Source: Roseiflexus sp. RS-1
GTDB taxonomy: Bacteria > Chloroflexota > Chloroflexia > Chloroflexales > Roseiflexaceae
DNA length: 64,000 bases
Direction of reading: 5' to 3'
Assembly: GCF_000016665.1 (NCBI RefSeq)
Contig: NC_009523.1
Span: 2,604,001-2,668,000 of the forward strand
This document shows positions 33,848 through 41,250 of this stretch, piece by piece; position 1 is the first letter of the stretch; each line of letters opens with the position of its first letter. The translations under genes and the position numbers were made by a program. The notes below the pieces were generated by a model that saw only the letters and a list, made by a program, of their open reading frames with translations, had not been told where the DNA came from and made no database searches.

Positions 33848-34211
33848 GCGGTTGAAACCGCGCCTGAGAGGACGCTTCGCGCCGGGCGGGCGCCGTGGCG
33901 GCGTCCACGCAGGTGGACGCCCGGCGAAAAGCCTTCCAGAGGCGATTTCAATCGCTGAATGCTGAGTTGTTTGCAGGCGCGCGTTTATGGAATATCAACC
34001 CGATCTGAAGCGTATAACCGGCGGCGGTTGAAACCGCGCCTGAGAGGACGCTTCGCGCCGGGCGACCGCCCAGGCGGGCGCCGTGGCAGCGTCCACGCAG
34101 GTGGACGCCCGGCGAAAAGCCTTCCAGAGGCGATTTCAATCGCTGAATGCTGAGTTGTTTGCAGGCGCGCGTTTATGGAATATCAACCCGATCTGAAGCG
34201 TATAACCGGCG
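33848..34211 (+). repeat. Tandem duplication (176 and 188 bases) including the start of the DUF512 gene
   Basis: Copy A (33848-34023) and copy B (34024-34211) are adjacent and nearly identical; B has 12 extra bases after the CGCCGGGCG block. Each includes GC-rich inverted repeats (GCGTCCAC...GTGGACGC) and ends with ATG and the first 12 codons of the downstream gene. Confidence 0.92.
33987..34031 (+). CDS. Duplicated 14-codon mini-ORF copying the DUF512 N-terminus
   Basis: Copy A of the duplication contains the original start context: ATG then EYQPDLKRITGGG and TGA. It shares its first 12 codons with the DUF512 protein and then stops in the next repeat copy. If transcribed, it would be an upstream ORF with the same ribosome-binding context as the real gene. 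Whether it is translated is unknown. Confidence 0.45.
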   Translation: MEYQPDLKRITGGG

Positions 34212-35680
34212 AAGGTGGCGAGATCGCCGCCGTCGCCCCTGGCAGCATCGCCGCCGAACTCGGATTGCAACCGGGCGATGTGGTGCTGGCGGTGGGTGAT
34301 CTCCGTCTGCGTGACGTGATCGATTACCGTTTTGCTATTGCCGAAGAGACTATCGAGTTGCTGGTGCGTCGCGGTGATGAGGAGTTCATCTACGAGATCG
34401 AGAAAGACCCTGATGACGATCTGGGGATCGAGTTCGTCGAGCCGCTCTTTGACCGTCTGCGCACCTGCAACAACAAATGCCCGTTCTGCTTTCTGACCCA
34501 GATGCCGAAAGGGTTGCGCCGTTCGCTCTACCTGAAGGACGATGACTATCGTCTCGGCTTTCTGTACGGCAATTTTGTGACCTTTACCAACCTGACGGAG
34601 GCGGACTGGCAGCGGATCGAGCAGCAGCGCCTCAGCCCGCAGTACATTTCCGTCCACGCGACCGACCGCGCGTTGCGGGCGGTGCTGCTGGGGAAACCCG
34701 ATGTGCCGGATGTCCTGGAACAGATCAGGCGTCTTGGTCGGATCGGCGTGACGGTGCATACCCAGATCGTTGCGCTGCCGCAGATTAACGATGGTGAGGC
34801 GCTCCATCAGAGTATTCGCGACCTGGCGGCGCTCTATCCGATTGTGCAGACGATTGCAGTGGTGCCGGTTGGGTTGACGAAGTATCGCTTCGAGGGAAAG
34901 CGACCGCAAACGATCAAAACCGCGATCCAGATCCACGAGACGCCGGAATGGATCGATGCGACCTGGGAACGGCAACCACGCTGGGACGATGCGCTGCATC
35001 CGCACGAACGACAGGTGGCGAACCTGGGGTATTGCGCACGTCAGATCGTCGCCGCCGATGTGCCGATGCGCTGCTACCGCTCTGACGAAGCGCCGCGCAT
35101 TATCGATCTCGTTGAAGCGTACCAGGCGGATTTTCGTCGGCGCTACGGCATCGGTCTCGTGTATGCGTCCGACGAGTTCTACCTGCTCTGTGGGCGTGAC
35201 CTGCCGCCGGCTGCCGATTATGATGGCATGCCCCAGTATTCGAATGGGGTCGGTATGACGCGCGACTTCCTGGATGGATGGGCGAAAGCGCAACGTCGTC
35301 TGCCCGCCCGTCTGCCGCAACCCGCCGAACTGACAATTGTCTGCGGGACGTTGATCGCTCCCATTCTTCAGCGTGTCATCGACCGTCTGAACCGGATCGT
35401 CAATCTGCACGCCCGCCTGTTGCCGGTCGTCAACCGGTTCTTCGGCGAAACGGTGACCGTCTCCGGGTTGCTGATGGGTCAGGATGTCGCACCGGCTATT
35501 CGTGCGGCGGGGGCCCGCCGGGTGCTGTTGCCGCGGGTTATGTTCGATCATACCGGTGCACGCACCATCGATGAGTACACCATCGAGCGCATTGGCGCCG
35601 AAAGCGGCGCCGTGGTTGCCGTCGCTGGCGAACCGGACGATATTGTGCGCTATGTGCGCGCCTTGAGCGTCGCGCCCTGA
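34175..35680 (+). CDS. DUF512 protein: PDZ-like domain plus Fe-S radical-SAM-like domain
   Basis: A 501-residue protein of the family first noted as an FeS-containing oxidoreductase in cyanobacteria. Residues 14-60 are a PDZ-like domain (APGSIAAELGLQPGDVVLAVGD). C98-NNK-C102-PF-C105 is a CxxxCxxC cluster motif, followed by FLYGNFVTFTNL. The C-terminal half is DUF512 (NGVGMTRDFLDGW, TIVCGTLIAP, VTVSGLLMGQDV). Reaction unknown. The first 12 codons are within the duplicated segment. The next gene begins 33 bases downstream. Confidence 0.88.
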   Translation: MEYQPDLKRITGEGGEIAAVAPGSIAAELGLQPGDVVLAVGDLRLRDVIDYRFAIAEETIELLVRRGDEEFIYEIEKDPDDDLGIEFVEPLFDRLRTCNNKCPFCFLTQMPKGLRRSLYLKDDDYRLGFLYGNFVTFTNLTEADWQRIEQQRLSPQYISVHATDRALRAVLLGKPDVPDVLEQIRRLGRIGVTVHTQIVALPQINDGEALHQSIRDLAALYPIVQTIAVVPVGLTKYRFEGKRPQTIKTAIQIHETPEWIDATWERQPRWDDALHPHERQVANLGYCARQIVAADVPMRCYRSDEAPRIIDLVEAYQADFRRRYGIGLVYASDEFYLLCGRDLPPAADYDGMPQYSNGVGMTRDFLDGWAKAQRRLPARLPQPAELTIVCGTLIAPILQRVIDRLNRIVNLHARLLPVVNRFFGETVTVSGLLMGQDVAPAIRAAGARRVLLPRVMFDHTGARTIDEYTIERIGAESGAVVAVAGEPDDIVRYVRALSVAP

Positions 35681-38899: not shown

Positions 38900-39313
38900 T
38901 CAATCCGGCAGCGCAACCGTCTTCAGCGCGGCAACTGATGTCGGCGACCCTGGTGCGTGGTACGAGACGGTGTATGGACCAATCGTGCAGAACATGCCGT
39001 CGGTCAGTAAATGGGGTTTGTGGGGCGTCAGGCGGTGACCGTCAACGAAGGTGCCGTTGGCGCTGCCGACATCCACAACCATCACCCCTTCCGGGCAGGG
39101 ATGGAACTCGGCGTGGCGACGTGAGACTCCCTCGTAACTCAACACCAGGTCGTTGCTCAGCGCCCGTCCGGCTGTCACAGCAACCTCTCCCAACACGATC
39201 CGTCGTTCAATCACGCCATCGCGACGGACGATCAGGCGCGCAGCTGGCGAAAGCCCGATGAAGGACGTACTGCTGTGCGCTTCTGAAGGTTGTTGATCTG
39301 AACCGCTGTTCAT
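38900..39313 (-). CDS. FHA-domain protein
   Basis: A 137-residue single FHA domain: GRALSNDLVLSYEGVSRRHAEFHPCPEGVMVVDVGSANGTFVDG, with the phosphothreonine-binding Arg (GR), Ser and SRRH, and NGT loop. It binds phosphothreonine peptides; a Ser/Thr kinase is not adjacent. Ends convergently two bases from der. A TGC plus TACAAT extended -10 lies upstream (39347-39355, minus strand). Confidence 0.88.
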   Translation of the reverse strand: MNSGSDQQPSEAHSSTSFIGLSPAARLIVRRDGVIERRIVLGEVAVTAGRALSNDLVLSYEGVSRRHAEFHPCPEGVMVVDVGSANGTFVDGHRLTPHKPHLLTDGMFCTIGPYTVSYHAPGSPTSVAALKTVALPD

Positions 39314-39377: not shown

Positions 39378-40370
39378 TCATGATCGCTTGAAAATCGATG
39401 TACGCAGATGCAGGTCTGCGCCACAACAGGTGCAGCGTCCATCCTGGACACCCGTCATACGTGCGATCCGACCGCTGCGCTCGATCACCACCGATGCGCA
39501 CGACGGGCATATCGTCTCCTGTCCTGGTTCCGGTCCGTACACATAGAACAGTCCTGCTTCGGCGCCGGTGCGACGCGCGCGTGCAACCGCCGCTGCCGCC
39601 GCCGCGCCTGCGTCGCCCGGCAAAACGTGCCAGGGGGTGAACGGGCTGAGCGCGGATCGGATCCAGCGGGCAAGTTCATGGATCTGGTCGGCGGCATCAT
39701 TCACGCCGGGGTGCAGGCGGGTCACCACTTCGACATGGCAGTGCCAGCGATGAAAGGCATGTTCCGCCACCTCCAGAATGCCCCGCCATTGCTCAACGCC
39801 AGCGAGACGCCGGTAGGCGGCATCATCGAATGCGCGCAATTCCAGGCAGATACCGTCGAGATAATGCCCGATCTGATCGAGCGCTTCAATCGTCAGGAAC
39901 CCGCTGGTGATCAGCGCCGTGTATCGGCTGGCGGCGCGCGCGGTGCGCAGCAGATCGAAGACATACTCATGCGCCACTGAAGGGTCGCTGTGCCCCCAGA
40001 CAATGCCGCGGCACAGGCGCTCCAGCGCGAATGTGGCAGCACGCTCCGGCGCAAGCCGCCGTCGATGCTGATCATCGGGAGGTATGCTGCCATACTGACC
40101 ACGATGGCCGTCCTCAGGGAAGGCGTAGCCCCACCCCCCAAGCGTCAACACCTGGGTGCCGGGAAAGAAGTGCCACAACCGGTGCTCATCAATCGGTCCG
40201 ACTGTCGCTACGCTAATAAGACCATCGTTATGCACCGCAAGACCGTTATTGTCGCGCACACGCACTCTGCAACGCCCTGCCTGGCGTGGTTTCAACGCGC
40301 ACCGCCACTGACAGACATTGCAACGCAACGTTTCATCATCGAGCGCGTCAACGAGACCGGTGTAGCGCAT
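39378..40370 (-). CDS. AmrS-like protein lacking the radical-SAM cysteine motif
   Basis: A 330-residue relative of AmrS (AmmeMemoRadiSam radical-SAM subunit). The N-terminal CNVCQWRCALKPRQAGRC and the family's next region are recognisable. At the expected cluster site the family's GGxGCxFxCPxCQN reads LGGWGYAFPEDGHRGQYG (residues 76-93): all three cysteines are replaced, by Tyr, Glu and His. The barrel parts (SGFLTIEALDQIG, LELRAFDDAAYRRLAG, TRLHPGVND) remain. A C-terminal zinc ribbon is present (CPSC...CTCCGADL). It is therefore probably unable to bind the SAM cluster. The start after AGGTGAACCC is preferred to an ATG six codons earlier. Confidence 0.75.
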   Translation of the reverse strand: MRYTGLVDALDDETLRCNVCQWRCALKPRQAGRCRVRVRDNNGLAVHNDGLISVATVGPIDEHRLWHFFPGTQVLTLGGWGYAFPEDGHRGQYGSIPPDDQHRRRLAPERAATFALERLCRGIVWGHSDPSVAHEYVFDLLRTARAASRYTALITSGFLTIEALDQIGHYLDGICLELRAFDDAAYRRLAGVEQWRGILEVAEHAFHRWHCHVEVVTRLHPGVNDAADQIHELARWIRSALSPFTPWHVLPGDAGAAAAAAVARARRTGAEAGLFYVYGPEPGQETICPSCASVVIERSGRIARMTGVQDGRCTCCGADLHLRTSIFKRS

Positions 40371-40518
40371 GGGTTCACCTGCTAGCATTCTTGTTCCTGA
40401 TCAGGTATAATCCTGACGCATGGTGCGTATGGCGCCATGCATTGCCGATCGTCATCAATTCCTGAAAATCTGGCGCATCACCCTGTGCGCCAGCACAATC
40501 TGGTCTGGTACAGAAGAT

Positions 40519-41250
40519 ATGGACGAAACACCACTCCGTCGCCGCCTTGGTCTTGATCGACCATCAATCGCCGATCATCCGGTCGAAACGACCGACGTCG
40601 CAACCGCCGCCCCGCACCCGATGCCTGCTGTTCGCAGTGTGGTGCGGGAAATGCTGGAAACCGCCGTCTTCATTCTCCTGGTTTTTCTGATTGTGCGCGG
40701 CGCGATCCAGAACTTCAAGATCGAAGGGCAAAGCATGGAGCCGAATCTGCACAGCGGGCAGTATATTCTGGTCAACAAACTGATCTTCTTTCACTTCGAC
40801 CTGAATGCGCCCCTGCGCCTGTTGCCCGGCAATGCCGATCTGCCGCCGCGCGTCGTCTATCCTTTTCGCACCCCGCGTCGCGGCGATGTGGTGGTGTTCG
40901 AGTATCCGCGTGATATGAGCAAAGATTATATCAAGCGCGTGATCGCCCTGCCGGGAGAGTCGGTCGAGATCCGGGAGGGGCGCGTGTATATCAATGGCGT
41001 TCTGCTCGATGAGCCGTACCTTCAGGGAATCACCACTACGTGCCGCCTGGAAGACCCGTGCGCGCGCGGTCCCGTCGTGGTCGATCCAGGCACGGTGTTC
41101 GTGATGGGGGACAACCGCGCCAACAGCAGCGACTCGCGCGAGTGGAGCAGTTTGCCGCTGGATCGGATCATCGGGCAGGCGTGGATTTCGTACTGGCCGC
41201 GTGAGCATTGGGGCGTTATTCCTTCGCCGACGTATGCTGCATTGCCTTAA
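40519..41250 (+). CDS. lepB: Signal peptidase I
   Basis: Cleaves signal peptides at the outer face of the membrane. One membrane anchor (residues 43-62). Catalytic Ser72 is in GQSMEPNLHSGQ and general-base Lys139 in YIKRVIALPGE. Box E is GDNRANSSDSREW. The N-terminal 40 residues are cytoplasmic and variable. The ATG used is the last before the anchor with moderately good context. The glycosyltransferase follows 21 bases on. Confidence 0.93.
   Translation: MDETPLRRRLGLDRPSIADHPVETTDVATAAPHPMPAVRSVVREMLETAVFILLVFLIVRGAIQNFKIEGQSMEPNLHSGQYILVNKLIFFHFDLNAPLRLLPGNADLPPRVVYPFRTPRRGDVVVFEYPRDMSKDYIKRVIALPGESVEIREGRVYINGVLLDEPYLQGITTTCRLEDPCARGPVVVDPGTVFVMGDNRANSSDSREWSSLPLDRIIGQAWISYWPREHWGVIPSPTYAALP

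Follow-up and report, generated by a model that had tools for sequence, protein, structure and literature searches.

The cluster cysteines of a protein homologous to AmrS, the radical-SAM member of the AmrS-Memo-AMMECR1 triad, were lost a single time, in an ancestor of the Chloroflexia families covered here, and strong purifying selection has acted on the gene ever since. The cysteine-less protein very probably does no radical-SAM chemistry; it is interpreted here, with moderate confidence, as a repurposed AmrS: the radical-SAM fold has persisted in a non-radical role, that of a binding or adaptor protein with a presumed target discussed below. For radical-SAM systems with Memo and AMMECR1, a passage of PMC7159879 refers to Burroughs et al. 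2019. Literature searches on AmmeMemoRadiSam, on AMMECR1 with MEMO1 and on radical-SAM pseudoenzymes yielded nothing that describes a cysteine-less clade.

The window is the whole stretch of DNA that was analysed, 64,000 nucleotides of Roseiflexus sp. RS-1, the genome of which is a single contig of 5.80 Mb. The minus-strand orf at 39378-40370 is an open frame, located as in the preliminary description. Another in-frame ATG lies 18 bases upstream, at 40388 (MLAGEP-MRYT), and translation more likely begins there, since the Roseiflexus orthologues L002 and L006 have isoleucine (IRYT) in place of the methionine of MRYT; the gene (39378..40388, minus strand) encodes a protein of 330-336 amino acids. 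The NCBIfam model TIGR04337 (AmmeMemoRadiSam radical SAM enzyme) covers residues 8-320 with an E-value of 1e-42 and a score of 146 bits, below its curated cut-off of 220 bits; other cysteine-less copies score 134-195 bits and an intact relative (L018) 294, while Pfam Radical_SAM does not match the window protein. As with AmrS, homology extends over the whole length and comprises an N-terminal Cys4 module, the barrel and a C-terminal Cys4 module, with 37-42% identity to AmrS of Dehalococcoidia; unlike AmrS, the protein lacks CxxxCxxC, the SAM lysine and the TRFxP segment, scores below the cut-off, and usually has neither Memo nor AMMECR1 beside it. Judged from the sequence, homology to AmrS is clear and equivalence to AmrS is not.

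The former cluster loop comprises residues 82-94 (YAFPEDGHRGQYG; 40089..40127, minus strand). Intact relatives read GWGCNFHCxHCQNW at this place, and in an alignment with them the three cysteines coincide exactly with Y82, E86 and H89, which agrees with the replacement of cysteine by Tyr, Glu and His given in the preliminary description. The loop could be read in 51 distinct orthologous sequences from seven Chloroflexia family-level groups (f1, f2, f3, f4, f5, f6 and f8); CxxxCxxC is absent from all of them as it is from the window protein, and a single cysteine near the loop is kept in L066 only. Every readable AmrS locus in the sample from Chloroflexota outside Chloroflexia has CxxxCxxC. The particular Y/E/H pattern is not conserved among relatives: Tyr82 is common (36 of 51 sequences) but positions 86 and 89 vary freely, and Y/E/H was therefore rejected as an alternative set of ligands.

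A class-wide search found a relative of the gene in 70 of 158 Chloroflexia genomes, and by our count it is of the cysteine-less type in 68 of these 70, that of G038 being a fragment; G055 and G068 have intact-type matches only. Intact cysteines in sister species would have pointed to recent decay or sequence error, and none were found: the sisters also lack them. A second cysteine-less copy in one genome (L088, G040:C528) has an N-terminal half that is not AmrS-like and a long branch in the tree; it is possibly a decaying duplicate or an assembly break, and its unreadable N-terminal half places it outside the counts. With the trait columns removed from the alignment, trees place the cysteine-less copies together on one side of a branch, with support 99 (106 rows); rooted on distant AmrS, these copies are a clade with support 100/100, recovered in 200/200 bootstrap trees and separate from the 54 sampled intact AmrS. 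Between pairs of sequences, dN/dS is 0.04-0.10 within Roseiflexus plus a sister genus and 0.03-0.06 in genus g12 of f2, the largest sister family of Roseiflexaceae; these ratios are near saturation where dS exceeds ~1.5, but closely related pairs (dS 0.25-1.0) lead to an unchanged conclusion. The values are similar to those of lepB (0.05-0.12) and no higher than those of the intact AmrS paralogue (0.08-0.14).

Both cysteine modules flanking the barrel are retained, as the preliminary description had it, and from their Cys4 pattern the metal of both is presumably zinc. The N-terminal module (C17-C20-C24-C34, CNVCQWRC...GRC; 40269..40322, minus strand) is invariant, present as CxxCxxxC...C in 51/51 cysteine-less sequences and 53/53 intact relatives. 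The C-terminal module, which resembles a zinc ribbon (C288, C291, C313, C316; 39423..39509, minus strand), is kept in the window protein and in 49/49 cysteine-less copies. An AlphaFold model of the window protein (pLDDT 89, pTM 0.89) has a radical-SAM barrel, and its best Foldseek matches are radical-SAM proteins, the top one being the pyruvate formate-lyase (PFL)-activating enzyme (PDB 3c8f, TM 0.74 on the target); according to the model, the partial TIM-barrel radical-SAM fold is retained. Disorder of the old loop was rejected as a sign of cluster loss, the loop being equally uncertain in the model of the intact AmrS L018. The PFL-activating enzyme (3c8f, 3cb8) is the closest solved fold and its SAM-site positions align over residues 118-241, but it possesses the cluster motif, is shorter (245 amino acids), lacks the Cys4 modules and is 16-18% identical.

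In a profile alignment, residues 129 and 177/179 fall on the GGE and D-x-K positions of that enzyme. Residues 128-130 (SDP; 39981..39989, minus strand) occupy the place of the SAM-binding GGE/NEP motif, and residues 177-179 (ELR; 39834..39842, minus strand) that of D-x-K. The SAM lysine is gone from every cysteine-less copy read (mostly R, else Y, N or others), and the TRFxP segment that follows PWH has been deleted. E135 is kept, and R104 and R121, variable in intact AmrS, are invariant in 51/51 cysteine-less sequences. The preliminary suggestion of a pseudo-enzyme of the AmrS family is well supported by one ancient loss, class-wide retention, purifying selection and the loss of further catalytic parts.

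The chief rival to the adaptor reading, though an unlikely one, is a non-radical ligand sensor, in which SAM, another adenosyl compound or the former substrate of AmrS would be bound by the barrel but left uncleaved, and its presence signalled to a partner. Such a role would be consistent with the positions that the alignment assigns to SAM motifs of the PFL-activating enzyme, among which the acid at 129, where the amino group of SAM would bind, is kept as D or E in 51/51 sequences, Pro130 in 50/51, T155 and G157 of T155-x-G157 in most and D/E177 in 46/51, and with H212 and E214, invariant within the barrel. In radical-SAM enzymes, however, SAM is anchored through its methionine moiety by the iron of the cluster, and the ligands of that cluster are gone; the equivalent of K131 is lost in all copies, Herpetosiphonaceae have T, M, R or I at position 177, and the residues that are kept may be structural.

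The gene neighbourhood preserves traces of an older operon. As had been noted, neither memo nor AMMECR1 is adjacent to the gene in the window, where an FHA-domain gene (38900..39313, minus strand) lies directly downstream on the same strand, a neighbour in Roseiflexus-like genomes only. In Herpetosiphonaceae (f3), AMMECR1 directly follows the cysteine-less gene with a gap of 7-123 bp, and in G087 Memo lies 54 bp downstream, so the cysteine-less gene descends from an AmrS-Memo-AMMECR1 operon; intact AmrS of the Dehalococcoidia type is mostly followed by Memo and/or AMMECR1. At four loci (L007, L010, L012, L020) intact AmrS is directly beside AMMECR1 with no Memo between, so the AmrS-AMMECR1 pair can exist without an adjacent Memo. 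The next genes downstream vary: lplA in f4 and, in parts of f1, gcvT, either alone or together with lplA. In Herpetosiphonaceae loci L005 and L058-L062, the cysteine-less gene and AMMECR1 are followed by lplA-gcvT-gcvH (lipoylation and glycine cleavage), and in L066-L072 (f5, f6, f8) genes for a Ser/Thr kinase, a PP2C phosphatase and a VWA protein lie downstream. The AMMECR1 hallmark RGCIG reads RGSVG in L059 and L062 of the Herpetosiphonaceae group; serine in place of the conserved cysteine was considered as correlated decay and set aside as not general, being absent from L058, L060 and L061. Elsewhere in the window, a gene at 34175-35680 (plus strand), two genes from der (EngA), encodes a PDZ - Radical_SAM_2 - DUF512 protein with a CNNKCPFCF motif, in a gene order conserved in relatives of Roseiflexus.

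Upstream and transcribed divergently is lepB (40519..41250, plus strand), encoding signal peptidase I (Peptidase_S26). It is found divergently upstream of 42 of 52 cysteine-less copies (41 within 600 bp and one at 660 bp), in f1, f2, f3, f4, f6, f8 and one f5 genome, and at 0/54 intact AmrS loci. Its occurrence across families suggests that the two genes were probably already paired when the cysteines were lost, although a gene order kept so long may reflect inheritance rather than function. A promoter scan around the two genes gave nothing above chance.

These remnants bear on the proposal, made in the preliminary description, that the protein is a binding partner or regulator of an active AmrS, of Memo or of AMMECR1, a reading that we extend to a decoy of AmrS. 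The partner idea holds locally, in Herpetosiphonaceae and in G087, where the gene adjoins AMMECR1 and Memo respectively, and Roseiflexus has both an intact AmrS (G000:C1:3001209-3002165) and Memo elsewhere in the genome, AMMECR1 not having been found there. That paralogue belongs to the same family (33% identity) but has the motif GCNLGCRFCQN and sits on a distant AmrS branch. As a general role the proposal is improbable: Memo and AMMECR1 occur in 11/158 Chloroflexia genomes each, about 50 of the 68 carriers of the cysteine-less gene have neither by our count, and an intact AmrS was not seen in most f2 genomes, three of which (G006, G007, G009) are single contigs that show no other AmrS.

In 36 sequences of Roseiflexaceae and f2, the remodelled loop has the form Y-A-x-x-x-D-Q-x-R-G-x-Y, and over residues 82-94 it is more conserved than the rest of the protein (mean entropy 0.91 bits versus 1.14). 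Y82, D87, R90 and Y93 are invariant in these 36 sequences, which would be consistent with an enzyme with new chemistry, also raised in the preliminary description, where another metal or these loop residues would catalyse a different reaction. The loops of f3, f4, f5, f6 and f8 differ from one another and do not share the four residues; the motif is thus not common to the whole clade and there is no class-wide catalytic set, making this explanation quite improbable. In favour of recent decay, a pseudogene or a sequencing error there is nothing besides the missing cysteines, and these explanations are refuted: independent genomes from seven family-level groups share the loss, the frames are open and dN/dS is about 0.05.

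A repurposed AmrS acting as an adaptor could have arisen and functioned as follows. After the single loss of the [4Fe-4S] site in an ancestor of these Chloroflexia families, the protein would have been retained for a non-radical job, its two Cys4 modules and the barrel surface holding a protein or RNA target. The loop Y-A-x-x-x-D-Q-x-R-G-x-Y would take over from the cluster, serving as a binding element at the mouth of the barrel, and the barrel may still accommodate a small ligand, for example SAM or the former substrate of AmrS. AMMECR1 is the probable partner in Herpetosiphonaceae; outside that family the AMMECR1 gene was lost and the protein would act without it. Against the adaptor reading, retention of the SAM-pocket acid, T155-x-G157, E214 and (mostly) H248 seems to exceed what a pure scaffold requires, and the neighbourhood names no single partner, with lepB upstream and downstream genes that differ by family. 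No match came from two genera of Roseiflexaceae (g3 and g9, with 13 genomes listed), so the job of the gene is dispensable there. A more specific version, in which AmrS became, early in Chloroflexia, an adaptor that binds SAM or a substrate without radical chemistry, carries a conserved loop motif of its own and is tied functionally to the neighbouring signal peptidase I or to protein or RNA handling, is advanced only tentatively.

The labelling of cysteine-less genes as radical-SAM enzymes would be a misleading annotation. Radical-SAM proteins that survive cluster loss seem to be rare, the literature search on radical-SAM pseudoenzymes having given nothing relevant. Two members of the AmrS-Memo-AMMECR1 triad have human homologues, and the triad is not known to have an assigned function. 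A constrained, class-wide case with intact outgroups and operon remnants offers a clean route to asking what AmrS does besides, because chemistry and binding come apart in a lineage that lacks the radical step but keeps the protein; with both Chloroflexus and Herpetosiphon in culture, the cysteine-less protein is open to testing. If the more specific version, tied to signal peptidase I or to protein or RNA handling, is true, a radical-SAM enzyme would have left, throughout Chloroflexia, a descendant that works without radical chemistry and whose function is new.
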